A stretch of DNA of 64,000 bases from assembly GCF_000215955.2 (NCBI RefSeq), contig NZ_AFNV02000026.1, positions 1-64,000 on the forward strand, in the 5' to 3' direction. The position numbers and the translations under genes are program-made. This document shows positions 48,271-60,324 of the stretch, one piece after another. The stretch comes from Salinisphaera shabanensis E1L3A (GTDB lineage Bacteria; Pseudomonadota; Gammaproteobacteria; Nevskiales; Salinisphaeraceae). Each line of letters begins with the position of its first letter. Position 1 is the stretch's first letter. A model generated the notes under the pieces. That model ran no database searches. It was given only the letters and a program-made list of their open reading frames with translations, and was not told the origin of the DNA.

Positions 48271-49734
48271 ATGCTGCCCGGCGCGGTCGCGTTGATGCCG
48301 TGGCTCGTCTTCGCGGCCTACGCGCTGATCGTGCTCAAGGCCACGCCCCGAGCCGCCGGGCCGATGGCGTTCTTCGGCGGCCATTCCCTGTCCGGGCGTA
48401 CGCCTGGCATCTGGCTGCTGGGGGCGTCGGCGGCTATTTCCTGGGTCATGGCCAAGAGCGTGGACAACGCCATGAACCTGACCGCTGCCTTCGGCTACTG
48501 GGGCGGCATCGGCTATGCCACCTACTGGCTCGCGTTCGTCATCGTGGCCATCGCCGTCTATTTCATACGCACCCGCGGCCACGACAACTCGCTGGCCGCC
48601 TTTCTCGAACGCAAGTACGGCGTCGTGGCCACGCGCCTGTTTCTGATCGTGATCGGCATTCGTCTGTTCAACGAAATCTGGTCGAACACCAAGGTCGCCG
48701 CGCTTTACTTCGGCACCGAAGGCAGCACGCCCTACTGGCTCGCCGTCATCGCCTTCACCGCTTTGACGCTCTACTACGCACGGCGCGGCGGCCTGCGTTC
48801 CTCGATCGTGACCGACGCGGCACAAATGGTACTGATTGCCGTATTGCTGGTCGTGACGCTCGCGGTGCTCACACCGAATGTCATAGCCACCGGTCTATCG
48901 AGCGACGACACTGCGCTGATCAGCGCCGACATGCGTGCCCATGGCATCACTTTTGCCGTGCTCGCGCTCGTGCAAACGCTGTCCTATGGCTTTCACGACC
49001 CCGTGCTGACCGACCGCGCCTTCGTTAGCCCGCCGCACAAGATGGTCGCCAGTTTCATGCTTGCCGCACTGCTTGGCGGCGCGCTGATCGCCGGTTTCAG
49101 TGTGGCCGGACTGTACGCGCTGGCCGAGCACATCACACCGACACCTTCGGTTGCCATTGCCGTACCCATGGCGCTGGGTCTTGGCATGATGCTGTTGTTC
49201 AACGCGGTCATGCTCGCCAGCGCCGGTTCGACGCTCGACTCCACCTTCGCGTCAACCGCCAAGTTCAGCGCTCGAGACTGGCGCGTTGCCCGCGCGGTAC
49301 CGACTCGTCAGGACCAGCGTCGCGGCCGGCGGGCGGTATGGGTCATCGCCGTAATCGGCAACCTGCCGCTGCTATCGCTCTATATCGACGGCGTCGGCCC
49401 TGCCGTGATTGCGGCGACCACGATCAGCGGTACCGCGATCATGGGCCTGGCGCCGATATTTCTGCTCGCATGGCTACCGGGCGCAGGTCGGCTGTCCTTT
49501 CACCTGGCGCTCTGGCCCGGCGTGATCATCGGCATAGCCCTCGCGCTCGAGCGGTTGGCCGGCTTCGAACTCATCCCGGCAGCCGTGTCGATAGGTAGCG
49601 GCCAATACGCAAAAACGCTCGGCATCAACGTCTGGGGCCTGGCGCTATGCACCACCCTGTTCGCCGGCGCTGCCGTGGTGTCGGTCATGTGCCGACGCGG
49701 CGCTCAGCCGGTCCAGTCGAACTCGTTGTCCTGA
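48271..49734 (+). CDS. sodium:solute symporter family protein
   Basis: 487 residues with about 13 membrane helices, the SSS family fold (LeuT-like). GIWLLGASAAISWVMAKSV, YGVVATRLFLIVIGIRLFNEIW and LTLYYARRGGLRSSIVTDAAQM are family-like segments. The substrate cannot be told. It begins 5 bp after gspN and may be co-transcribed with the secretion operon, although no functional link is known. Its last 31 bp overlap the convergent cfa gene. An internal start at Met9 (48295) is possible. Confidence 0.85.
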   Translation: MLPGAVALMPWLVFAAYALIVLKATPRAAGPMAFFGGHSLSGRTPGIWLLGASAAISWVMAKSVDNAMNLTAAFGYWGGIGYATYWLAFVIVAIAVYFIRTRGHDNSLAAFLERKYGVVATRLFLIVIGIRLFNEIWSNTKVAALYFGTEGSTPYWLAVIAFTALTLYYARRGGLRSSIVTDAAQMVLIAVLLVVTLAVLTPNVIATGLSSDDTALISADMRAHGITFAVLALVQTLSYGFHDPVLTDRAFVSPPHKMVASFMLAALLGGALIAGFSVAGLYALAEHITPTPSVAIAVPMALGLGMMLLFNAVMLASAGSTLDSTFASTAKFSARDWRVARAVPTRQDQRRGRRAVWVIAVIGNLPLLSLYIDGVGPAVIAATTISGTAIMGLAPIFLLAWLPGAGRLSFHLALWPGVIIGIALALERLAGFELIPAAVSIGSGQYAKTLGINVWGLALCTTLFAGAAVVSVMCRRGAQPVQSNSLS

Positions 49735-50945
49735 ATGCGGCGCGGTGCCTCGACGCGTTCCTTGTACAGATAATCGCGCGTGACCGGCACGATATCGTTG
49801 CGCTGTGCAAGCTGGATATGAAATACCACCAGTTCGCCCCAGCGGAAGATCGCCTGGCAACCGAGTAAATAGAACTCCCACATCCGGCAGAAGCGCTCGC
49901 CGAAACGTTCGCGAAAAACGTCGCGATGCTGCTGGAAGCGTTCGTTCCAGCTGGCCAACGTACGCGCATAGTGCAGCCGCCAGATTTCCAGGTCCGACAG
50001 GCTCATACCGGTCTTTTCCACGCAGGGCGCGACCTCGGACAGCGATGGCACATAGCCGCCCGGGAAAATATATTTCTCGATCCAGCCGTGGGTGTCCTCG
50101 ACCGGTGGGCCGCTGCGCCCGATGGTATGAATCAGGCTCCGACCGTGCGGCTTGAGTAGGCGCTGAACCTGGTCGAAGAAGATCTGGAACTGCGGCCGGC
50201 CGACATGCTCGAACATGCCCACGCTCACGATCGCATCGTAGCCGCTGCCGCCATCGAGCTGGTGCTCGCGATAATCCTGTTTGAGAAAACGCACACGCTC
50301 GCGCAAGCCTTCACGGTCGGCGCGGGCTTGCGCATACGCGTACTGATCGTCAGATAGCGTCAAACCGGTCACGTTCACGTCGTGATGGCGAGCGAGATAG
50401 AGCGCCAGCCCCCCCCACCCCCAGCCGATGTCGAGCACACGATCGCCCGGCTCGAGACAGAGCTTGCGCGCAATATGCCGACACTTGGCTTGCTGGGCCG
50501 CTTCGAGATCCATGTCGGCGGATTCGAAGTAGGCACAAGAGTAGTGCATATCGCTATCGAGAAACCGGGCGAACAGCTCGTGGTCGATATCGTAGTGGTG
50601 CTTGACGTTGCGCCGTGAGCGCAGCCGCGAGTTCGCCTCGCGTAGCCCGCGCAAGGCATGGCGCGCGATATCCAGAATACGGCTGGAATCAAAGTTGTTC
50701 GCATTCGCGAAATACAACTTGAACAACGCCAGCAGCCCGCCCTCGCCCGGCCACCAGTCGCCGTCCATATAGGCCTCGCCGAACGCCATTTCGGGGTCGG
50801 AAAGCAAACGCGCCAGCACCCTGCGCTCGCGCAAGTGAATATGCGCGGTGGGCTTACCCTGGCCGATGATCTGCGTGTTCGAATCCGGGTAATGGATAAC
50901 GAGCGTGCCTTGATCGATCAGCCGGTCGAAAAAGCGTGCCTTCAT
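49704..50945 (-). CDS. cfa: cyclopropane-fatty-acyl-phospholipid synthase
   Basis: 413 residues. Motif I of the SAM site is VLDIGWGWGGLALYLARHH (about 170), preceded by HYDIDHELFARFLDSDMHYSCAYF, the Cfa hallmark, and followed by GMFEHVGRPQFQIFFDQVQRLLKPHG. The N-terminal domain (1-110) binds lipid. The enzyme adds a methylene bridge to unsaturated acyl chains of membrane phospholipids, a stress adaptation. Divergent from the universal stress gene; the 3' end overlaps the symporter gene by 31 bp. Confidence 0.93.
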   Translation of the reverse strand: MKARFFDRLIDQGTLVIHYPDSNTQIIGQGKPTAHIHLRERRVLARLLSDPEMAFGEAYMDGDWWPGEGGLLALFKLYFANANNFDSSRILDIARHALRGLREANSRLRSRRNVKHHYDIDHELFARFLDSDMHYSCAYFESADMDLEAAQQAKCRHIARKLCLEPGDRVLDIGWGWGGLALYLARHHDVNVTGLTLSDDQYAYAQARADREGLRERVRFLKQDYREHQLDGGSGYDAIVSVGMFEHVGRPQFQIFFDQVQRLLKPHGRSLIHTIGRSGPPVEDTHGWIEKYIFPGGYVPSLSEVAPCVEKTGMSLSDLEIWRLHYARTLASWNERFQQHRDVFRERFGERFCRMWEFYLLGCQAIFRWGELVVFHIQLAQRNDIVPVTRDYLYKERVEAPRRIQDNEFDWTG

Positions 50946-51580: not shown

Positions 51581-52390
51581 CTAGCCGATTACGCGCATGG
51601 TTTCGCCCGCCTGGCGGACGAGCCATGCGATATCGCGCCCGAATGACAGCATCAGTAGTGCCAACGCGATAACGAGCGCGGAGCTGGCTACCGTTGCGCT
51701 GACCGCCGGCAACAGGCAGACCATGAGCGTCGCGCCTTGCCAGACACAGGCAATCTTGCGCAATCGCGATGGCGGCAGCGGCCGCCTAAGCATGGGAAGG
51801 CATGCCTGGGCGATCACGAACAGATAGCGCGCCAGACCGATTGCGAGCACCCAGAGCCCCGCCTTGTCGAGCGCGACGAGCACGACCGACAACACAAGCA
51901 GGAAAAAGGCATCGAGCTCCATATCGAAACGGGCGCCGAATGCGCCACTGCAGCCGGTACGCCGTGCGACCCAACCGTCCACCCCATCCAGTAGCAGACA
52001 AACCACCGCCAGCGCGGCGAACGCATACACATTGGCAGCCAGAAAAGCCGGGAACATACCGGCGCCAGCCAGCAGCATCACCGCCGCCGCGCGTATCAGC
52101 GTGATGCGGTTGGCCCAGCCGAACGGCTGCGGACACCCGCCCCGACAGCCATACAGAACGACGGCCAGGGCCAGGTACAGACCGCCCGCACAGGCGCGTA
52201 GCGCAACCGGCCCGCCCAGCGCATACAACAGTATTTCAGTGCCGACGCCGAGCGCCACCAACCCCGCCAGCAGTTCGAAAATAAACGAACGCGCGCCCGG
52301 TTGCACTCTCGCGCGCGCCGACTGGCTGGTTGGCGCCGATACGCCAACGACCAGTCGCCGCGAAGGTATGATGCGGGTTACATTTCGCAC
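51581..52390 (-). CDS. CDP-alcohol phosphatidyltransferase family membrane protein
   Basis: 269 residues from a GTG at 52390 (start uncertain; no clear ribosome binding site). Several membrane helices. The full catalytic motif D-G-x2-A-R-x8-G-x3-D-x3-D is present at 135-160 (LDGVDGWVARR, then GARFDMELD). This family transfers a phosphatidyl or similar CDP-linked group to an alcohol. The N-terminal 80 residues add two extra helices. It opens a cluster that also has a PTPS-fold protein, a glycosyltransferase and a flippase-like protein, so it may make a lipid-linked product. The natural alcohol is unknown. Confidence 0.82.
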   Translation of the reverse strand: MRNVTRIIPSRRLVVGVSAPTSQSARARVQPGARSFIFELLAGLVALGVGTEILLYALGGPVALRACAGGLYLALAVVLYGCRGGCPQPFGWANRITLIRAAAVMLLAGAGMFPAFLAANVYAFAALAVVCLLLDGVDGWVARRTGCSGAFGARFDMELDAFFLLVLSVVLVALDKAGLWVLAIGLARYLFVIAQACLPMLRRPLPPSRLRKIACVWQGATLMVCLLPAVSATVASSALVIALALLMLSFGRDIAWLVRQAGETMRVIG

Positions 52391-52521
52391 AGAAGATCGT
52401 ACTCGCTAAGCCTACGCATCGGCGCCGGCTTCCTTGTCGCCCACGTCGCAACGCATGCGACGGCGTAATTTGATGAGTTTACGCGAGCGCGCTTCATCCT
52501 GTTTCAATTGCGTGACATGCC

Positions 52522-53502
52522 ATGACTGATCGCTTCGCTCGGGCCTTGTGGCTGGAACCGCCCTACGCCTGTCGTCTGCGCGACGAGCCACTGCCCGAAC
52601 GCGAGGGCGAACAACTTCTGATACGCAGCCTCTATTCCGCGATCAGCCGCGGCACGGAAACGCTGGTTTTCGCCGGTGCAGTGCCCGAGAGCGAATACTC
52701 GCGTATGCGCGCCCCGTTTCAGGATGGCAGTCTGCCTGGGCCGGTCAAACACGGCTATGCCAACGTCGGCGTGGTCGAAGACGGCCCGCCGAACTGGATC
52801 GGCCGCAACGTGTTCTGTCTGTATCCACATCAAACGCGCTATGTCGTGAACGCCGATGCCGTGGTTGAACTGCCGGCCGATGTACCCGCGGCGCGGGCGG
52901 TGCTTGCCGCCAATATGGAAACCGCGGTCAATGCGCTCTGGGACGCCGGTATCGGTGTGGGCGATCGGGTCACCATCGTGGGCGCAGGTGTGATCGGCGC
53001 ACTGATCGCCGGTCTGACCGCAGCCATCCCGGGCACCGATGTCGAACTCGTGGATATCGATCCAGGAAAGAGCGTGCTGGCTGAAGCCCTGGGCGCGCGC
53101 TTTCGCGCCCCGGATACCGCAACAACAGATCGCGATATCGTTGTTCATGCCAGTGCTACCGGCGCCGGCCTGGATAGCGCTATCGCCCTGGCCGGATTCG
53201 AAGCGACGGTCCTGGAAATGAGCTGGTACGGTGCCACGCCAGTAACAATCGCCCTGGGCGGCGCTTTTCATTCCCAGCGGCTGACGCTGCGCTCAAGCCA
53301 GGTCGGCGCCGTTTCGCCGAGCCGCCGCGCGCGGCGCGATCACGGCGCTCGACTGGCGCTCGCGGTGTCGCTGCTTGCCGACGCGCGCTTCGATGCACTG
53401 TTCGAGCTCGAAGATGCCGCGTTCGACGATTTGCCGGCGGTCATGCATCGTCTGGCCTCGCCAGACGACAATAGCCTGTGTCAGCGCATCCGTTACCCCT
53501 GA
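52522..53502 (+). CDS. zinc-less medium-chain dehydrogenase (MDR family)
   Basis: 326 residues. The GroES-like N-terminal part (IRSLYSAISRGTETLVFAG, GYANVGVVEDGP) is followed by a Rossmann fold with VTIVGAGVIGALIAGLTAA (about 150-168) and VELVDIDPGK. The structural zinc cysteines and the catalytic Cys-His ligands are absent. It resembles BchC-like and other uncharacterised zinc-binding dehydrogenase homologues. It probably reduces or oxidises a sugar or side-chain alcohol. It starts a plus-strand run of five closely spaced genes and lies 39 bp before the PTPS-fold gene. Confidence 0.78.
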   Translation: MTDRFARALWLEPPYACRLRDEPLPEREGEQLLIRSLYSAISRGTETLVFAGAVPESEYSRMRAPFQDGSLPGPVKHGYANVGVVEDGPPNWIGRNVFCLYPHQTRYVVNADAVVELPADVPAARAVLAANMETAVNALWDAGIGVGDRVTIVGAGVIGALIAGLTAAIPGTDVELVDIDPGKSVLAEALGARFRAPDTATTDRDIVVHASATGAGLDSAIALAGFEATVLEMSWYGATPVTIALGGAFHSQRLTLRSSQVGAVSPSRRARRDHGARLALAVSLLADARFDALFELEDAAFDDLPAVMHRLASPDDNSLCQRIRYP

Positions 53503-53541
53503 CGGCGCGTTTTCTGTTTCGAATTCAATAAAGGACCCGAC

Positions 53542-53940
53542 ATGTTCAGCCTGACCGTTCGCGATCACTTCATGATCGCCCATAGCTTCAACGGCGAAAT
53601 CTTCGGCCCGGCCCAGCATACGCACGGCGCAACCTATGTCGTGGACGTATCGTTCATGCGCGCCGAACTCGACGACGACGATCTCGTCATTGACATCGGC
53701 CTGGCCAGCGATGCGCTCAAGCGAACGCTCGGCGAACTGAATATGCGCAACCTCGACGACGTCGACGAATTCAAAGGGCGCAACACCACCACCGAATTTC
53801 TCGCCAAGGCCGTGTTCGACCGGCTGCGCGCCGCCATTCAAGCCGGCGATCTCGGCGATAGCGCGCGATCGCTTGCCGCAATGCGCGTAACGCTGGCGGA
53901 GTCGCATATCGCCTGGGCAAGCTACGAGGGCGACGTGTGA
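53542..53940 (+). CDS. PTPS/QueD-fold protein without catalytic triad
   Basis: 132 residues with an AAAGGA box upstream. The zinc ligands of 6-pyruvoyl-tetrahydropterin synthase / QueD are present (H14, H26, H28 in AHSF and HTHGATY), as are the NTTTEFLA segment and the substrate-binding Glu near the end (E120 in LAESH). The catalytic Cys four residues before the first His of HxH is Gly22, and the LDHxxLN block reads LNMRNLD, so the Asp and His are Asn67 and Met68. It can probably bind a pterin-like ring but should not do standard PTPS or QueD chemistry. Overlaps the glycosyltransferase gene by 4 bp. Confidence 0.8.
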   Translation: MFSLTVRDHFMIAHSFNGEIFGPAQHTHGATYVVDVSFMRAELDDDDLVIDIGLASDALKRTLGELNMRNLDDVDEFKGRNTTTEFLAKAVFDRLRAAIQAGDLGDSARSLAAMRVTLAESHIAWASYEGDV

Positions 53941-54980
53941 CCGCGGCCGCATTCGTCGTCGCGGGCGCGCTCGACCAGCCCACCGGCGGGTACGTTTACG
54001 ACCGCGCCATTATCGACGGTCTGCAGGCGGATGGCGTTGATATAGAGGTCGTCGAACTGGCGGGCACGTTCCCCGTCGCCGACGATACCGCCCGTGCCGC
54101 GCTCGATCGTACGTTGGCGCGCGCCTCGCCACGTATGCCCGTCATCGTTGACGGGCTCGCTGCCGGCGGGCTACCCGAGGTCGTCGAACGCCATGCGGGC
54201 CAAGGAGCGCTCATCGTCCTGCTTCATCATCCGCTTTGTGATGAAACCGGTCTCGATGACGCAACTCAGGCGCATTTACTCGAATCGGAGCGGCGTGTGC
54301 TTGCCTGTGCCACGCGAATCATCGTGACGAGTCGTTTCACTGCACGCCGTCTCGTATCGCTCGCCCTGGCCCGCGAAGACGCTATTACGGTCATCGAACC
54401 GGGCGTACGCCCGGCCACACTCGCGCACGTTGCACACCAGGGCGCGCCTCGTCTGCTTTGTGTCGCCAGCATCATTCCCCGCAAAGGTCATCGCCTGCTC
54501 GTCGATGCCCTCGCTCAACTCCGTGATCTCGACTGGGTCTGTGATTTCGTCGGCGACGATAAACGCGATGCCGACGAAACGAAGGCGTTGCACCAGGCGG
54601 TCGATCGCCACGGTCTTTCATCGCGTATCCGTCTGCACGGCAGCCAGAACACGCAGGCGCTGGAGCGCTACTACGAACGCGCGGCCATCTTCGTGCTGGC
54701 CTCGTACTACGAAGGCTACGGCATGGTCATCGACGAAGCCGTGGCGCACGGACTGCCGATCGTCACCACAACAGGCGGCGCGCTCGCGGATACCGTGCCG
54801 GCCGGCGCCGGCATCGTAGTCGCGCCCGGCGATACGAACGCGCTTGCACAAGCCCTGCATACGCTTATCGATGATGCCGAACAACGCGGATGTGCCGCCG
54901 CCGCGGCACGCATTGCGCGTTCACGGCAACGCGACTGGGCAGCGGCGGCACGCGAATTCGCGGCCGTGCTCGCGCGATGA
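53937..54980 (+). CDS. GT4-family glycosyltransferase
   Basis: 347 residues from a GTG overlapping the previous stop. GT-B fold: the N-terminal domain starts with VVAGALDQPTGGYVYDRAI, a glycine-rich acceptor loop; the C-terminal donor domain has LLCVASIIPRKGHRLLVDAL and the E-x7-E motif EGYGMVIDEAVAHGLP near 265. It transfers a sugar from an activated donor to an acceptor, probably the product of the neighbouring pterin-like or lipid enzymes. Overlaps the methyltransferase gene by 4 bp. Confidence 0.86.
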   Translation: MTAAAFVVAGALDQPTGGYVYDRAIIDGLQADGVDIEVVELAGTFPVADDTARAALDRTLARASPRMPVIVDGLAAGGLPEVVERHAGQGALIVLLHHPLCDETGLDDATQAHLLESERRVLACATRIIVTSRFTARRLVSLALAREDAITVIEPGVRPATLAHVAHQGAPRLLCVASIIPRKGHRLLVDALAQLRDLDWVCDFVGDDKRDADETKALHQAVDRHGLSSRIRLHGSQNTQALERYYERAAIFVLASYYEGYGMVIDEAVAHGLPIVTTTGGALADTVPAGAGIVVAPGDTNALAQALHTLIDDAEQRGCAAAAARIARSRQRDWAAAAREFAAVLAR

Positions 54981-55822
54981 GCGAATCCAATCCACATGCC
55001 TTTTTCGAAGCAGACTGGCTTAGCCTGCGCGAACCGGCCGATCACCAGGCCCGCGCTATGCCCCTGACCGATGCCGCGGCCGAATGGCTGGCTCGTCAGG
55101 CCGCCAGTCGTCGGCGCATCGTGGACCTCGGCGCCGGCCGCGGTTCGAATATGCGCTATCTTGCCCCGCGCCTGCCCGGCCCTCAGCACTGGCGTCTTAT
55201 CGATCACGACTGCGCGCTGCTCGAGACAGTCCAGGCGAGCGCGCATTCGCTCACCGATGCCCATGGCGCGCCCGTCGCGATCGAAACGCAAGCGCTGGAT
55301 CTCACCGGCGACGGCCTCGAAACCGCACTGGCGGGCGCACACCTGGTCACCGCAGCGGCATTATTCGACCTGGTCACCCGCGCATGGATCGTGCGCCTCG
55401 CTCAGGCCTGTGCCGCGCACGGGGCGGCCGTGCTGTTCGTTCTCAGTATCGACGGCCATATCGACTTCGCCCCGGCCTCGACCGACGACGCATTCATAAC
55501 CGGCCTGCTGGGGGCACATCAGCACCGTGACAAAAGCTTTGGCGAAGCCCTCGGCGCGCACGCACCTGCGGTGCTGCAACAGGCGTTCGAGCACGAAGGC
55601 TATCGTGCAACGCTTGCCAAGAGCGCCTGGAATATCGATGCAACACGCGCCGATCTCGGCGCAGCGCTAATCGACGGCTGGCGCCGCGCCGCATGCGAAC
55701 AGGCCCCCGAGGCCAGTGCGCGTATCGATGCCTGGGCTGCCGCCCGTATGCAGTCACTCCAGGCCGGCGAGCTATCGATCACCGTCGGCCATCAGGATCT
55801 GTTCGCAACACCCAGTCCATGA
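54977..55822 (+). CDS. class I SAM-dependent methyltransferase
   Basis: 281 residues from the ATG at 54977. Motif I is IVDLGAGRGSNMRYLAPRL (about 48-66), with HWRLIDHDCALLE as motif II. The acceptor is not evident. It overlaps its neighbours by 4 bp on both sides (ATGA), so it is translationally locked to the glycosyltransferase and the flippase-like gene. N-, O- or C-methylation of the pathway product is inference. Confidence 0.82.
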   Translation: MSESNPHAFFEADWLSLREPADHQARAMPLTDAAAEWLARQAASRRRIVDLGAGRGSNMRYLAPRLPGPQHWRLIDHDCALLETVQASAHSLTDAHGAPVAIETQALDLTGDGLETALAGAHLVTAAALFDLVTRAWIVRLAQACAAHGAAVLFVLSIDGHIDFAPASTDDAFITGLLGAHQHRDKSFGEALGAHAPAVLQQAFEHEGYRATLAKSAWNIDATRADLGAALIDGWRRAACEQAPEASARIDAWAAARMQSLQAGELSITVGHQDLFATPSP

Positions 55823-56760
55823 GTCGAGGCGGCTGGCGTTTCACGCTGCGCGCGCTGTTCAGCGCGGCGCTGGTCGGCACAGTCGTCTGGCGCATCGATC
55901 TGACTGCTCTGGCGAACCAGTTTCAAGATCTGGATTACGAATGGCTGGCAGCAGCACTCGCGCTGACCGTGCCGCAGGTCGTCATCTCGGCCTGGCGCTG
56001 GCGCCTGACCGCGCGCTGCGTGGGCCTGCGGCTGACGATCGGTGCGGCGATCCGCGAATATTATCTAGCCACGTTTCTCAATCAGGTCCTGCCGGGCGGC
56101 GTACTCGGCGACGCGCATCGCGCCTGGCGCCATGCACGCCGCGATACCGATACCGCGGCCGCCTGGCATGCCGTATTCATCGAGCGTTTTTCCGGCCAGC
56201 TTTCACTCGCGCTGGTCACTGTCGTCGCACTCTGGCAGGCGCCCGCGCTAACGGCCGGCGTAGCGCAGCGACTGCCCATGGCGGGCTTTTCCGCGATACA
56301 GGCTTTTGTCGTGCTCGTCGCAATACTGCTTCTAATCGGCAGCGCCGGTGCGGTGGCTTACCGCTATCCCCAAACGCGCGTATCGGCCCTACGTTTTCTC
56401 GGAAATACGCATCGCAGCCTGCTCGCCCGCAGCGTCTGGCCGGCGCAATTCGCCAGCTCGCTGCTGGTGGTTGCAAGCTATATCGGCGTATTCCTGCTTT
56501 GTGCCCAGGCAATCGCACTGGCCACGCCGCTGGATGAACTCATCTGGCTCATCCCGCCGGTGCTCATGGCGATGGCGGTGCCGCTGTCGATTGCCGGCTG
56601 GGGTTTGCGCGAAGGCGCCGCGGCCGTGGTGTGGACGCTCGTCGGTCTGCCGGCGCACGAAGGCGTGGCGCTGTCGTTGTGCTACGGCGCGCTGGTGCTC
56701 GTATCCAGCTCGCCGGGCGCGGTTGTGCTGTGGCGGCGCGAGCCAGCGCTTCAGGGCTGA
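55819..56760 (+). CDS. UPF0104 / lysylphosphatidylglycerol synthase TM-domain flippase-like protein
   Basis: 313 residues from the ATG at 55819, with about eight membrane helices. NQVLPGGVLGDAHRAWRHAR and FIERFSGQLSLALV are the family signature (PG..GD and ERxxG blocks seen in MprF flippase domains and AglD-type proteins). It lacks the soluble transferase domain of MprF. It may move a lipid-linked or amphiphilic product across the inner membrane, which fits the CDP-alcohol transferase and glycosyltransferase nearby. Convergent with the RibD-like gene, overlapping it by 10 bp. Confidence 0.82.
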   Translation: MSRGGWRFTLRALFSAALVGTVVWRIDLTALANQFQDLDYEWLAAALALTVPQVVISAWRWRLTARCVGLRLTIGAAIREYYLATFLNQVLPGGVLGDAHRAWRHARRDTDTAAAWHAVFIERFSGQLSLALVTVVALWQAPALTAGVAQRLPMAGFSAIQAFVVLVAILLLIGSAGAVAYRYPQTRVSALRFLGNTHRSLLARSVWPAQFASSLLVVASYIGVFLLCAQAIALATPLDELIWLIPPVLMAMAVPLSIAGWGLREGAAAVVWTLVGLPAHEGVALSLCYGALVLVSSSPGAVVLWRREPALQG

Positions 56761-57596
56761 TACGAAGCGCGCAGGTCGAGATCGAAGAACATGTCGTCGC
56801 CCATGACCTGGCTTTTACAGGACGGTCGTAGCGCGCTGTGCAGTTTTTCAATAGGCGCCAGCGAGAGCGCCGGGCGCCCGGACCCGATCAACATCGGGGC
56901 CACCACGACATGCAGGCGATCGAGCAAACCGGCATCCAGAAATCGTGAAATCGTCACGCCGCCGCCTTCGACCAATACCCGCGTCAGGCCGCGTTCGGCG
57001 AGCAGGCCTAGAATGGCGGCAGGATCCATCGCCTCGTCGTCGCAACCGAGCACGACACGCTCGACACCGGGCGGGCTGGCCGGCGCGTGTGGCCCCACAA
57101 CGTGCAGCGTCGACGCCGAGGCATCGTTGAACAGCTTGCGATCGGCCGCAAGCCGCGCACGCGGATCGATCACCACACGCACCGGATTCGCCCCCGGCAC
57201 GTGGCGCACGGTCAGCTGGGGGTCGTCGGCGGCGACCGTACCGGCGCCGACGATTACGGCATCCACGAGCGCGCGCAGCCGATGCAGATGGACGCGGCTG
57301 GCCTCACCGGTCACGTAATGGGAATGCCCGCTTTCGGTGGCGATCCGCCCATCCAGACTCTGCCCGAGCTGCGCGATTACGAAATCCGGCCCACCGAGCG
57401 CGACCGGCAGCAATGTATCCAACAATGCCGCGACCGAGACCGACAATTCGCCGTCGAACTGCCAACCGTAGCTTTCATCGATTACGATAGATGTGCGCTG
57501 CACATTCATATCGCCGAGTGTCGCCGGCGCGACGCGCCTTGAATTGCGTGCATCCTGAATCAATTGCCAGGCGTAATCGTCGTCCATCACAGGCAT
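56751..57596 (-). CDS. stand-alone RibD C-terminal-type pyrimidine reductase
   Basis: 281 residues. A ~70-residue N-terminal extension precedes the RibD_C reductase domain: IAQLGQSLDGRIATESGHSHYVTG, VDAVIVGAGTVAADDPQLTVR, VLVEGGGVTISRFLDAGLLDRL. The zinc deaminase domain of bacterial RibD is absent. Such stand-alone reductases reduce the ribose of the GTP cyclohydrolase product to ribityl in fungi and archaea; others act on pterins or folate. Divergent from the GTP cyclohydrolase II gene across 166 bp, a suggestive partnership for a dedicated pathway rather than ordinary riboflavin synthesis. Confidence 0.85.
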   Translation of the reverse strand: MPVMDDDYAWQLIQDARNSRRVAPATLGDMNVQRTSIVIDESYGWQFDGELSVSVAALLDTLLPVALGGPDFVIAQLGQSLDGRIATESGHSHYVTGEASRVHLHRLRALVDAVIVGAGTVAADDPQLTVRHVPGANPVRVVIDPRARLAADRKLFNDASASTLHVVGPHAPASPPGVERVVLGCDDEAMDPAAILGLLAERGLTRVLVEGGGVTISRFLDAGLLDRLHVVVAPMLIGSGRPALSLAPIEKLHSALRPSCKSQVMGDDMFFDLDLRASYQP

Positions 57597-57762
57597 TCAT
57601 TGCTCATCGCGGGCGTTTGTCGAACGCGGCGCGGGCTACCGCGCGGGCCACCGACTCTAGGATAATGCCGCGCCGCATGCGAGCGCCTGTGGCCAGCAAT
57701 CAGTGCATGTTCGAGCGCGCGTCGCTTGAGTTTTACAAAACGGGACCATACCGAGAGACAGT

Positions 57763-58911
57763 ATGCGACAGGTGGAACGTTCGATATTCGATTTGCGGCG
57801 CGGTTTGCCCGTACTCATCCGTAACAGCGACCCCCAGACCGACGACTCGCATCGCGCCACCCTTGTCGCACCGCTCGAAGGCATGACTGACGCTGCGTTG
57901 CAGCGTCTAGCCGAGCATGCCGGCAACCCCTGCGCGCTGATTGTCACCAAGCATCGCCTGGAAGTGCTGGGTCTCAATACCGACGGCGATGCAGCAGCGC
58001 TGCCGATTACGGCCGACAACACAGCAACACAAGTCATCGACTGGGCCTGTGCACGCCACCCGCAGACTCAGCCGGAACCCAAGGCCATACAAAAGACAAC
58101 TGGCGGCGACGCCGCCGGGCTTACGCTCATGCGCCGCGGCCTGCTCATTCCGGCCGCGATTACCGCGCCGGTCGCGGCCGATCGGCTGGCAGCCATCGAA
58201 GCTCGGGTCAAGGACGGCAGCCTGCTGGCCACCGACACCGATGCCGTCGCCAACTATGAAAACAACGCGCCCAATTTTCTCAAGCGCATCAGCGCAGCGG
58301 ACGTACCGCTCGACGATGCGCCGCGCTCGCGTTTCGTGCTGTTTCGTGAAGCCGACGGCATGCGCGAACATCTGGCGATCGTGATCGGCGACCCGGAGAA
58401 ATGGGCCGACGCGGTGCCGGTGCGCCTGCATTCGGCCTGTCTGACCGGCGACCTGTTCGGCAGCCTGCGTTGCGATTGTGGCGAGCAGCTACGCTCGAGC
58501 GTGGCCAAGATCGCCGATCATGGTGGCGGCGTATTGCTCTATCTCGCCCAGGAAGGCCGCGGCATCGGGCTCGCAAACAAGCTGCGCGCTTACAGCCTTC
58601 AGGATGAAGGGCTGGATACGGTGGACGCCGATCATGTGCTGGGCTTTGGCGACGACGAACGCCGCTACAATGTGGCACTGGAAATGCTGGCTCAATTGGA
58701 GATCCGGCAGATCGAACTATTAACCAATAATCCGTCCAAGATCGCGGCGATGAGCCGCGGCGGGGTGACGGTGGTACAGCGCAGCGGTGTCTATGGCCGG
58801 GTGACGCACCAGAACCGTCGTTATCTGACTGCCAAGGCCACCCGCGCCGGCCACTGGCTGGACCAGGTACTCGGCACATCACCGGAAGACGCGACCGCGA
58901 CCGACAACTGA
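57763..58911 (+). CDS. GTP cyclohydrolase II with extra N-terminal domain
   Basis: 382 residues. The C-terminal ~195 residues are a complete GTP cyclohydrolase II: zinc ligands in CLTGDLFGSLRCDCGEQL (C226, C237, C239), YLAQEGRGIGLANKLRAY with the Tyr matching E. coli Tyr105, and LLTNNPSKI. That Tyr argues for normal release of formate and the diaminopyrimidine. The N-terminal ~185 residues (LRRGLPVLIRNSD, NPCALIVTKHRLEVLGL) faintly resemble a degenerate RibB domain but lack its acidic active-site motif. It probably feeds the neighbouring RibD-like reductase. It may be a second copy beside a housekeeping ribA elsewhere. Confidence 0.87.
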   Translation: MRQVERSIFDLRRGLPVLIRNSDPQTDDSHRATLVAPLEGMTDAALQRLAEHAGNPCALIVTKHRLEVLGLNTDGDAAALPITADNTATQVIDWACARHPQTQPEPKAIQKTTGGDAAGLTLMRRGLLIPAAITAPVAADRLAAIEARVKDGSLLATDTDAVANYENNAPNFLKRISAADVPLDDAPRSRFVLFREADGMREHLAIVIGDPEKWADAVPVRLHSACLTGDLFGSLRCDCGEQLRSSVAKIADHGGGVLLYLAQEGRGIGLANKLRAYSLQDEGLDTVDADHVLGFGDDERRYNVALEMLAQLEIRQIELLTNNPSKIAAMSRGGVTVVQRSGVYGRVTHQNRRYLTAKATRAGHWLDQVLGTSPEDATATDN

Positions 58912-58933
58912 TCGCTTACTGGCTGGCGCTATG

Positions 58934-59731
58934 TTAGACGCCGCCGAGCGTCGCCAGATCAAACGTCTGTGTTTCGTCGATGACCTGGGCAAGACGCGCG
59001 CTGAACTGCGCCGCCAGCGCAGCGCCATGTTCGGCGCTGGCCAGACGCGCGTCGCCCGCCACGCCCTGCGGGTGCAGATCTTGCGCCATCCAGGCAAAGC
59101 CGGCATCCCCTTCCGGTAGCAGCGTGCTTCCCGCGTCGGCCCGCTGGGCGCCGATTGGCTTGAACTCGGCGATATGCTCACGGCGCACGCTGGCCGGTGC
59201 CAGATGCAGCATTAGCGACGTTTCCAGCGCCCCGCCGTGCAAACCGTGCGCCAGTTCGTCGGCAGCGAGCGAAGCCGCGGGGGGCGCAAAACGAAAATAA
59301 TTCGCCTTGACGACCAGCATGCGGTGGGCAGCGCGCAGCTTGAGCGCGGCCAGATCGAGTACCGCCTTGTTGCCGCCGTGGCTGTTGAAAAGCAACAGCC
59401 GCCGAATGCCGGCCGCAGCGAGTGATGCGCCGATCGATTCGATCGTCGTTATCGCCGTCTCCGGCGCAATGCTGAGCGTACCGGCAAAGCCGGTATGTTC
59501 CAGACTCGCGCCGACGGCGAGCGTCGGCAACACGAAGACGGGCGCGCTGTCGTTACGCAAGTGCTCGAGCGCGCCTGCGAGCAAGCCTTCGCCAATCGTC
59601 ACATCCGTGGATAACGGCAGATGCGGGCCGTGCTGTTCAACTGCGGCGACCGGCAGGATGGCGACCGACGCGTCGTTGGCGATCGCAGCAAGTTCCGGCC
59701 CGCTTAGATCGCACCAATAGCGCCAGGCCAT
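58934..59731 (-). CDS. creatininase-family metal-dependent amidohydrolase
   Basis: 265 residues from the ATG at 59731; longer in-frame sequence upstream lies inside the neighbouring gene. Metal-binding motifs of the creatininase family are present: VAAVEQHGPHLPLSTD (Glu, His, Asp about 29-41), FNSHGGNKAVLD and GGALETSLM. The family includes creatininase, MftE of mycofactocin synthesis and archaeal ArfB, which deformylates the FAPy intermediate made from GTP. Its place beside a GTP cyclohydrolase II and a RibD-type reductase makes a role on a pyrimidine or pterin intermediate attractive, but this is inference. It lies 2 bp downstream of the AhpD-like gene. Confidence 0.83.
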   Translation of the reverse strand: MAWRYWCDLSGPELAAIANDASVAILPVAAVEQHGPHLPLSTDVTIGEGLLAGALEHLRNDSAPVFVLPTLAVGASLEHTGFAGTLSIAPETAITTIESIGASLAAAGIRRLLLFNSHGGNKAVLDLAALKLRAAHRMLVVKANYFRFAPPAASLAADELAHGLHGGALETSLMLHLAPASVRREHIAEFKPIGAQRADAGSTLLPEGDAGFAWMAQDLHPQGVAGDARLASAEHGAALAAQFSARLAQVIDETQTFDLATLGGV

Positions 59732-59733
59732 GA

Positions 59734-60324
59734 TCAGGCCTTGGCGTCGCGCGGCATACGGCCCATGAGATAGAACTCGTCGTTGGGCCGCATTGCGGTG
59801 AGATTGGCCATGCGATTGGACAGCGCGAAGAATGCGGCAATCGCGCCGATATCCCAGATATCGTCTGCCGAAAAACCGTGCTCGGCCAACCGGGCATGAT
59901 CGTTGGGCCCGACAGTGTGGGCAGCGTTCGACACCTGCACCGCAAAATCCAGCATCGCGCGCTGGCGGGGCGTGATATCGGCCTTGCGATAATTGACTGC
60001 AATCTGGTCCGCAATCAACGGATCGGCTTCGCGAATCCGCAGAATCGCGCCGTGAGCGACCACGCAGTACTGACACTGGTTGATGCCGGACGTCGCGACC
60101 ACAATCATTTCGCGCTCGCCCTTGGTCAGTCCGCTGTCTTTTTCCATGAGCGCATCGTGATAAGCGAAAAACGCGCGGAACTCGTCCGGGCGATGCGCCA
60201 ATACCCAGAACACATTGGGTACGAAGCCGGCCTTGTCCTGAACGGCGAGAATGCGCTCGCGAATATCCTCGGGCAGTTCCGCCAGTTTCGGCACATCAAA
60301 CTGGCTGATCGCTTTATCCATCAC
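59734..60324 (-). CDS. AhpD-like (carboxymuconolactone decarboxylase fold) peroxidase-related protein
   Basis: 196 residues. GINQCQYCVVAHGAIL carries the CxxC-x3-H redox motif of AhpD-type proteins (about 80-95), and LTKGEREMIVVATSG is the preceding helix. The family of uncharacterised peroxidase-related enzymes has this length. It may reduce peroxides through its Cys pair. It is 2 bp upstream of the creatininase-family gene on the same strand and presumably co-transcribed. Confidence 0.85.
   Translation of the reverse strand: MMDKAISQFDVPKLAELPEDIRERILAVQDKAGFVPNVFWVLAHRPDEFRAFFAYHDALMEKDSGLTKGEREMIVVATSGINQCQYCVVAHGAILRIREADPLIADQIAVNYRKADITPRQRAMLDFAVQVSNAAHTVGPNDHARLAEHGFSADDIWDIGAIAAFFALSNRMANLTAMRPNDEFYLMGRMPRDAKA

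Follow-up and report, generated by a model that had tools for sequence, protein, structure and literature searches.

The nine genes at positions 51581-59731 of a 64,000-nucleotide stretch from Salinisphaera shabanensis E1L3A (the window) are, on balance, best read as a biosynthetic cluster of the PTPS-IV type that would convert GTP into a reduced 2-amino pyrimidine or pterin, which would be glycosylated, methylated and, in some lineages, linked to lipid. A GTP-derived, glycosylated, methylated and possibly lipid-linked product fits the predicted enzyme set, and the outcome is probably a pterin-like compound that carries a sugar and a methyl group and may be attached to the membrane. The gene content, its conservation, the residue changes and the finding of a single intact GTP cyclohydrolase II (GCH II) in the genus are established observations. 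The PTPS-IV gene is widespread (at least 578 loci, one genome per species), and the gene set survives in genomes of about 1 Mb and on a small plasmid.

Gene content and organization

All nine genes were located where they had originally been predicted, and their families were assigned by Pfam and NCBIfam profile searches and, where families failed, by AlphaFold models and Foldseek. Pfam supports a CDP-alcohol phosphatidyltransferase family protein on the minus strand (51581..52390, CDP-OH_P_transf, PF01066, E = 6.9e-15), three plus-strand genes encoding a T-fold protein assigned to the PTPS-IV subfamily, with an FGPAQ signature and altered catalytic residues (53542..53940, PTPS, PF01242, E = 8.4e-24), a GT4-type glycosyltransferase (53937..54980, PF13692, E = 2.1e-29) and a flippase-like UPF0104 membrane protein (55819..56760, LPG_synthase_TM, PF03706, E = 5.8e-42 when run from 55693), a stand-alone RibD_C reductase without a deaminase domain on the minus strand (56751..57596, PF01872, E = 8.4e-42), a GCH II with an N-terminal extension on the plus strand (57763..58911, GTP_cyclohydro2, PF00925, E = 2.2e-55), and a creatininase-family amidohydrolase on the minus strand (58934..59731, Creatininase, PF02633, E = 4e-67). 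The MDR-superfamily NAD(P) dehydrogenase (52522..53502, plus strand) and the class I SAM-dependent methyltransferase (54977..55822, plus strand) have no Pfam match.

The best NCBIfam match of the dehydrogenase is weak (bchC at 40 bits, where the cut-off is 291). The nearest folds to its AlphaFold model (pLDDT 90.2) are polyol and alcohol dehydrogenases (best Foldseek matches to 4ejm, 6ie0, 6dkh and others) and at no single position from 35 to 52 do more than 2 of 30 sequences carry a cysteine; the protein is apparently an MDR dehydrogenase that lacks the usual zinc-site cysteine. The methyltransferase also matches no NCBIfam family, and the Foldseek matches of its model (pLDDT 94.6) are class I methyltransferases, with E = 6.3e-12 for the best of them. 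The motif of the CDP-alcohol phosphatidyltransferases (D..DG..AR..G...D...D) is complete in 139 out of 141 homologs at the loci examined, the window protein among them, and the enzyme could transfer a phospho-alcohol or a phospholipid moiety.

The expected joining of four genes by 4-bp overlaps was also found: the PTPS-IV, glycosyltransferase, methyltransferase and UPF0104 genes are linked by three such overlaps, given a UPF0104 start at 55819, which was adopted instead of the first start of the open reading frame (ORF) at 55693. The dehydrogenase gene lies 39 nt upstream of this run on the same strand. Because the CDP-alcohol phosphatidyltransferase, RibD_C and creatininase genes are encoded on the strand opposite to the dehydrogenase and the GCH II gene lies beyond RibD_C, the nine genes do not form one operon. 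The creatininase start was placed at 59731; an upstream GTG in the same ORF is found at 60076.

Conservation and distribution of the cluster

A search with the PTPS-like protein in a collection with one genome per species confirmed at least 578 loci. The best 80 of these were chosen, a sample that leans to close relatives, and 66 were tabulated (14 were left out for short flanks). They represent four phyla, with the Gemmatimonadota and the Acidobacteriota contributing one metagenome-assembled genome each. Among these 66 loci (from the best 80 of at least 578), the dehydrogenase and the PTPS-fold protein are present at all 66, the glycosyltransferase at 65, the methyltransferase at 64, the CDP-alcohol transferase at 58, RibD_C at 55, the flippase-like protein at 50, GCH II at 40 and the creatininase homolog at 37, so that the set does co-occur in other genomes. 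Within the same 66 loci, the CDP-alcohol transferase gene, where present, is opposite in strand to the dehydrogenase at 55 of 58 loci and the RibD_C gene at 51 of 55, a pattern beyond chance, so that the conservation reflects more than the inheritance of an operon. PTPS-IV is accompanied by the dehydrogenase and the glycosyltransferase at nearly all of 173 loci examined.

A seven-gene core that lacks GCH II and creatininase is present in each of the four reduced genomes examined (about 1 Mb each) and on a 59-kb Microbacterium plasmid, approximately 3 kb from a recombinase and a transposase gene. In a set of 96 loci, whose totals count L019 and L032 twice although they are almost surely one locus, the glycosyltransferase and methyltransferase share a single ORF at 23 other loci, and creatininase and RibD_C do so at one locus (L050). 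Three pattern matches to phage-borne copies were obtained, none of which was confirmed.

RibD_C is absent from 40 of 60 actinobacterial loci, a sample that covers 60 of 64 places (the three weakest, G707, G657 and G782, were left out together with G450, which is identical to L098). The Betaproteobacteria in the 66-locus set carry the CDP-alcohol transferase at six of eight loci and UPF0104 at none of the eight. Within the genus, these two genes are both present at 6 of 14 loci and both absent from 8 (at the locus itself; three of the 14 genomes are 81-87% complete, and a gene missing there could be a gap). The original view of nine genes as one pathway is supported in part: GCH II and creatininase are accessory to the cluster and lie outside the conserved core, and the CDP-alcohol transferase and UPF0104 genes are absent from the eight genus loci.

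GTP cyclohydrolase II and the creatininase homolog

The window GCH II retains Tyr105 (E. coli numbering) together with all three zinc cysteines, matches PDB 2bz0 (E = 5.6e-47), and scores above the cut-off of NCBIfam NF001591 and slightly below that of TIGR00505 (196 bits, cut-off 205.85). It is the only GCH II in 7 of the 14 genus genomes; the other seven contain second copies, all of which (7/7) lack the three zinc cysteines, leaving the cluster gene as the only intact GCH II found in all 14, although in the three less complete genomes (81-87%) another copy could fall into a gap. The cluster GCH II of the genus therefore probably supplies the riboflavin route as well.

Each of eight actinobacterial genomes checked contains 2-4 PF00925 genes, so that the cluster copy is an extra one there. 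Tyr105 is replaced at 37 of the 48 actinobacterial loci that have GCH II, and creatininase accompanies 36 of these 37 non-Tyr enzymes and none of the 11 Tyr enzymes, a pairing that may represent a natural handover of one enzyme's second step to another protein. In a set of 105 loci, which may contain some genomes twice, creatininase nevertheless accompanies 40 of the 56 Tyr enzymes, although a deformylase should be unnecessary there, and the Tyr changes only three times on the tree, a small number of independent events. The creatininase homolog reaches the cut-off of none of the NCBIfam models that it matches (best MftE, 121.5 bits, cut-off 172) and is a possible formamide hydrolase acting on the GCH II product.

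These data bear on the alternative that the pathway consists of the core only (the dehydrogenase, PTPS-IV, glycosyltransferase, methyltransferase and RibD_C, with the CDP-alcohol transferase and UPF0104), and that GCH II and creatininase belong to riboflavin housekeeping and are kept adjacent through a common first intermediate. The absence of GCH II from 26 and of creatininase from 29 of the 66 loci (best 80 of at least 578), the seven-gene core that the four reduced genomes and the plasmid carry by itself, and the finding of no other intact GCH II in any of the 14 genus genomes all agree with this explanation, which is possible but rather doubtful given the extra GCH II copy in eight of eight actinobacteria checked (2-4 PF00925 genes each), the replaced Tyr at 37 of 48 actinobacterial loci, and the joint creatininase and RibD_C ORF in L050.

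The stand-alone RibD_C reductase

The closest PDB match of the RibD_C protein is 6p8c, a reductase of 2,5-diamino-6-ribosylamino-4(3H)-pyrimidinone 5'-phosphate (DARPP). Its best NCBIfam model is TIGR00227 (ribD_Cterm, 151.4 bits, just above the cut-off of 150.15), and the archaeal reductase model TIGR01508 gives 119.5 bits (cut-off 186). Judged by these scores the protein appears nearer to the C-terminal domain of eubacterial RibD than to the archaeal reductase, which counts against the proposed DARPP-type role. According to the available text of PMC3631187, bacterial RibD, which uses a deaminated substrate, has Lys at the specificity position, and the fungal and archaeal enzymes, which use the amino substrate, have Thr and Asn, respectively. 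The window protein has Gln where bacterial RibD has Lys (B. subtilis position 151), and the position is Gln, His or Ser and never Lys in 77 of 77 ORFs, in 12 of 12 more and in 20 of 20 from the actinobacterial sample; the organism's own RibD has Lys in the corresponding motif (judged by eye). The Lys that marks a bacterial RibD reductase acting on the deaminated substrate is absent from all 77 ORFs, and the residue pattern makes the protein a candidate DARPP-type reductase with a 2-amino substrate. It resembles the archaeal and fungal DARPP reductases (2azn and others) in standing alone and in having no Lys at this position (PMC3631187, available text), but differs in carrying Gln, His or Ser instead of Asn or Thr, and no deaminase partner was seen in the cluster.

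All 14 genus genomes encode a housekeeping RibD in addition to the cluster RibD_C. The separate riboflavin genes that the original prediction would require are therefore present for RibD, but no intact one was found for GCH II: the cluster encodes the organism's only intact GCH II found, and not its only RibD.

RibD_C has a DHFR fold and could instead be a dihydropterin-type reductase. The pathway would then start from ordinary dihydroneopterin, have no need of GCH II, and end in a tetrahydropterin glycoside similar to limipterin or cyanopterin. The glycosyltransferase and methyltransferase would match the known methylated pterin glycosides and some loci lack GCH II; this reading is nevertheless unlikely, as the PDB matches of RibD_C are riboflavin-type reductases and no further recurrent partner gene such as GCH I was recognized at the loci, in a list crowded by shadow ORFs.

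The PTPS-IV protein

The FGPAQ motif of the window PTPS-like protein is the signature of PTPS-IV, a subfamily of COG0720. F21, P23 and A24 are present in 113 of 113 sequences and Q25 in 108, and G22 is invariant in a smaller alignment (15/15). All 113 sequences have Ala in place of the catalytic Cys, have lost the second His of the HGH motif, and conserve two Glu, which we take to be the pterin-anchoring residues. The first zinc His of QueD is misaligned with the invariant His14 of the window protein, and this ligand counts as neither lost nor kept on this alignment. On these residues, the protein is assigned to the PTPS-IV subfamily, with loss of catalytic residues; membership in PTPS-I, II or III (QueD, BH4 and folate enzymes) was rejected because the protein lacks the Cys or Glu that precedes an HGH motif in those enzymes, and the second His of that motif. 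The closest solved relative by far is Streptomyces coelicolor SCO6650 (PDB 3d7j, E = 1.2e-48). Work by Spoonamore, Bandarian and colleagues reportedly identified SCO6655 as the enzyme that produces the formamide and found neither zinc nor PTPS activity in SCO6650. The comparison with S. coelicolor covers this protein, and the comparison at cluster level covers other actinobacterial loci.

A role in queuosine synthesis is unlikely because a separate QueD-like gene in the same genome, which retains the canonical motifs (Cys, HGH), adjoins a QueE-like gene (named by eye). In the plasmid records the PTPS member is named 6-carboxytetrahydropterin synthase and carries a queuosine term, and this annotation of PTPS-IV proteins is probably wrong wherever it is present.

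A function in coenzyme F420 synthesis is suggested by PMC5041015, the available text of which places PTPS-IV in archaeal F420 synthesis as unpublished work. CofD, the one F420 marker searched, is present in both actinobacteria searched (2/2) but absent from all 18 proteobacterial genomes searched, that of the window included, each of which has a PTPS-IV match (with cluster genes seen beside it in 17; the neighborhood in G398 was left out). On this marker the F420 role was rejected for these 18 genomes, and it is very improbable as an explanation of PTPS-IV. A chance neighborhood or vertical inheritance of unrelated genes would be compatible with conservation within the genus alone, but has practically no probability left, being contradicted already by the recurrence of the set and its strand pattern across four phyla, the shared ORFs, and the plasmid and reduced-genome copies.

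Relation to known systems

The RibD_C and PF00925 genes both lie in the neighborhood of the PTPS-IV gene in the window, and the AGeNNT study (PMC5445326, available text) describes PTPS-IV with the same FGPAQ signature and a neighborhood that includes PF00925 and PF01872. The available text of that paper names PF00925 as GTP cyclohydrolase I, proposes no pathway, and makes no mention of the dehydrogenase, glycosyltransferase, methyltransferase, CDP-alcohol transferase, UPF0104 or creatininase. The literature searched describes neither the cluster as a whole nor a product of it, which is weak evidence of absence as most subscription papers lie outside its coverage. Within that coverage, the original statement that no described pathway has this set agrees with the searches for the whole cluster, and the part of the neighborhood with PTPS-IV, RibD_C and PF00925 is already in print.

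BrbF, which belongs to the creatininase family, frees formate from a GTP-derived formamidopyrimidine and serves riboflavin synthesis, and the window creatininase is similar to the BrbF and ArfB formamide hydrolases at the family level (PMC9478397, available text). Many actinobacterial loci carry the same set of CDP-alcohol transferase, dehydrogenase, PTPS, glycosyltransferase, methyltransferase, UPF0104, GCH II and creatininase, but differ from the window, which has Tyr and RibD_C, in a non-Tyr residue at position 105 of GCH II (37/48) and in missing RibD_C (40/60). The pterin glycosides limipterin, cyanopterin and biopterin glucoside derive from GCH I. A pterin with a sugar and a methyl group would be common to these compounds and the cluster product, whereas the cluster encodes GCH II in place of GCH I.

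Proposed biosynthetic route

The route that we infer for the PTPS-IV cluster, including all of its substrates, the order of its steps and its lipid step, would begin with the conversion of GTP into DARPP by GCH II; where GCH II halts at the formamide, the creatininase homolog would remove formate. The stand-alone RibD_C would form the ribityl side chain on a ring that is still 2-amino, with no deaminase step, and a ribityl chain made without deamination would set the compound apart from the riboflavin route. Since 40 of 60 actinobacterial loci lack RibD_C, the ribityl step would not be universal unless a copy elsewhere serves. PTPS-IV would bind the 2-amino-4-oxopyrimidine, or a pterin derived from it, and act with the adjacent dehydrogenase on the side chain or the ring, and the glycosyltransferase and methyltransferase would add a sugar and a methyl group. 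Where a lineage retains the CDP-alcohol transferase and flippase-like protein, these would join the product to a lipid and present it at the membrane.

A second, GCH II-based route to pterins can be drawn up with the same enzymes, although it seems improbable. The ribityl-diaminopyrimidine formed by RibD_C would be oxidized at its C2' hydroxyl by the polyol-dehydrogenase-like MDR protein, yielding the same 2'-keto compound as the Amadori rearrangement of GCH I, and PTPS-IV would close the pyrazine ring to give dihydroneopterin phosphate, which would then receive a sugar, a methyl group and, in many lineages, a lipid anchor. If true, a reductase and a dehydrogenase would replace the chemistry of GCH I, with the formyl carbon lost.

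Organization of the Nine-Gene Cluster

The nine genes of the original prediction (51581–59731) and their coordinates were matched by open reading frames (ORFs) and family matches. The CDP-alcohol transferase (CDP-OH) gene is divergent at the left end of the cluster; the genes for the PTPS-fold protein, the GT4 glycosyltransferase, the methyltransferase (MT) and the flippase-like UPF0104 protein follow one another in series through three junctions with 4 bp overlaps; and the RibD_C reductase gene, convergent with UPF0104, is followed by the GCH II (PF00925) and creatininase genes on alternate strands. Two of the nine proteins, MT and the MDR dehydrogenase, had no Pfam match. Their predicted structures display a class I SAM enzyme fold (pLDDT 94.6) and a fold resembling polyol and alcohol dehydrogenases (pLDDT 90.2), respectively. 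In the dehydrogenase, no more than 2 of 30 sequences carry a Cys anywhere in residues 35–52, the expected place of the zinc-site Cys. Outside the cluster, a gene for a peroxidase-related AhpD-like protein (59734–60324) adjoins creatininase and is present at 4 of 14 Salinisphaera loci, the window included. A cyclopropane-fatty-acid synthase-like gene (49704–50945) adjoins the cluster at all 14 and likely reflects local synteny.

Distribution and Core Genes

The general idea of a candidate pterin/flavin-precursor glycoconjugate pathway was upheld, and the gene set, largely undescribed, is real and widespread. The PTPS protein was identified in 16 of 85 genomes of the order, among them all 14 of the genus. 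Using an alignment as query, it was detected in 21 out of 370 sampled genomes of the class, and in 63 out of 393 from the class to which a Streptomyces genome belongs. A scan of named genomes with the same protein confirmed at least 578 loci. Searching 96 loci (the window, 15 further stretches and the best 80 of the at least 578 loci) with profiles of all nine proteins identified MDR in 96, PTPS in 96, GT4 in 95, MT in 91, CDP-OH in 77, RibD_C in 77, UPF0104 in 63, GCH II in 57 and creatininase in 54. Sufficient flanking sequence was available for 66 of the best 80 loci (36 Gammaproteobacteria, 16 Actinomycetes, 8 Betaproteobacteria, 2 Alphaproteobacteria, 2 other Pseudomonadota, 1 Gemmatimonadota and 1 Acidobacteriota), and 61 of the 65 loci with a complete MDR-PTPS-GT4 trio carry it as one contiguous block. 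Sixty actinobacterial loci contained MDR, PTPS and GT4 throughout, UPF0104 in 54, CDP-OH in 52, MT in 52, GCH II in 48, creatininase in 37 and RibD_C in 20. Two contigs (L189 and L190) of one actinobacterial genome (G466) bear PTPS-IV genes accompanied by cluster partners, the PTPS-IV gene of a Streptomyces plasmid (L118:8001–8399) has no cluster partner within the 16 kb read, and in genome G008 a HipA-like ORF (L024:6221–7570), named by eye, separates the dehydrogenase and PTPS genes.

At the locus, all four genomes of 1.0–1.1 Mb in the class scan contain CDP-OH, MDR, PTPS, GT4, MT, UPF0104 and RibD_C but neither GCH II nor creatininase; the same seven genes are found on a 59-kb Microbacterium plasmid. 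On this pattern, GCH II and creatininase count as accessory. A rhodopsin gene in three of the four genomes, together with their size and a G+C content of 28–32% in the stretches read, suggests SAR86-like bacteria. Of the 14 genus loci, six have CDP-OH together with UPF0104 and eight have neither, in keeping with a joint lipid-and-flip module that is open to loss. Outside the genus the pair is not always together, since betaproteobacterial loci contain CDP-OH in six of eight cases and UPF0104 in none.

GCH II, Riboflavin Supply and Creatininase

Seven of the 14 genus genomes contain one PF00925 gene and seven contain two. The three zinc cysteines are kept in all 14 cluster copies and missing from all seven second copies, which are the RibBA-like proteins of the rib operon (L112:2051–3178 on C22 of the organism's own genome, and L135–L140). 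A GCH II dedicated to the pathway thus does not hold for the source organism, in which the cluster copy is the only intact one found; as the only intact GCH II found in the genus, it probably also serves riboflavin synthesis. Eight actinobacterial genomes carry two to four GCH II genes each. Three genomes of ~1 Mb (L141, L142 and L143) have one PF00925 match each, without the zinc cysteines.

Residue 105 of GCH II (E. coli numbering) is Tyr in 45 of the 57 copies from the 96 loci and Met (9), His (2) or Ile (1) in the other 12, all of which have creatininase at the locus. Among the actinobacterial copies 37 of 48 are non-Tyr (25 Met, 6 Leu, 4 His, 2 Gln), with creatininase at 36 of these 37 loci; the 11 Tyr loci all contain RibD_C and none contains creatininase. 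Over 105 loci, creatininase is present at 48 and absent at 1 with non-Tyr GCH II, and present at 40 (the window included) and absent at 16 with Tyr. Because residue 105 changed only three times on the dehydrogenase tree, the association between Tyr loss and creatininase is suggestive and does not amount to a test. A Sinorhizobium formamidase initially annotated as creatininase acts on the same GTP product (PMC9478397). At one locus (L050) creatininase and RibD_C share one ORF.

A Candidate PTPS-IV Type Pathway

In known PTPS enzymes two glutamates anchor pterins, and both are kept in all 113 PTPS sequences. In all 113, Ala replaces the motif Cys, the HGH motif lacks its second His (replaced by Ala in 111), and the Asp-His pair lacks its His. 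PTPS or QueD chemistry is unlikely, but a 2-amino-4-oxo ring may still be bound. The protein carries the FGPAQ signature that names subfamily PTPS-IV in PMC5445326, and is thus assigned to PTPS-IV; its closest solved relative is SCO6650 (3d7j) of S. coelicolor. We lean toward a PTPS-IV type cluster for a GTP-derived pathway as the main explanation. PMC5041015 mentions unpublished work that links PTPS-IV to F420 in archaea; the F420 marker CofD was absent from all 18 proteobacterial genomes searched (seven from the genus), each with a PTPS-IV match.

The RibD_C reductase bears on the substrate. At the position that is Lys in bacterial RibD and is proposed to recognize the deaminated ring, 77 cluster ORFs have Gln (66), His (7) or Ser (4), 12 further RibD_C proteins have Gln (5) or His (7), and 20 actinobacterial loci have Gln (5) or Ser (15). 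In the fungal and archaeal reductases, which act on the 2-amino compound, the equivalent residue is Thr and Asn, respectively, and replacing Thr by Lys altered substrate preference (PMC3631187). The best PDB match, 6p8c, is a reductase of the GCH II product DARPP. Against a 2-amino substrate, the sequence-based NCBIfam ranking places the eubacterial RibD C-terminal domain first (151.4 bits, cut-off 150.15), with the archaeal reductase below its cut-off (119.5 bits, cut-off 186.45). On balance, these sequence features favor a branch before deamination.

A GCH II route to pterins would be consistent with the modeled dehydrogenase fold and the T-fold protein; the absence of a zinc site in MDR and the lack of RibD_C at 40 of 60 actinobacterial loci argue against it, and we consider it improbable. 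Both this route and the PTPS-IV type pathway are slightly weakened by the NCBIfam ranking of RibD_C and by the Betaproteobacteria that contain CDP-OH without UPF0104.

The organism's own RibD, encoded in the rib operon, has the Lys motif by eye. Two RibD_C genes are present in all 14 genus genomes and in eight of nine genomes outside the genus, the ninth (G307) having the cluster copy only.
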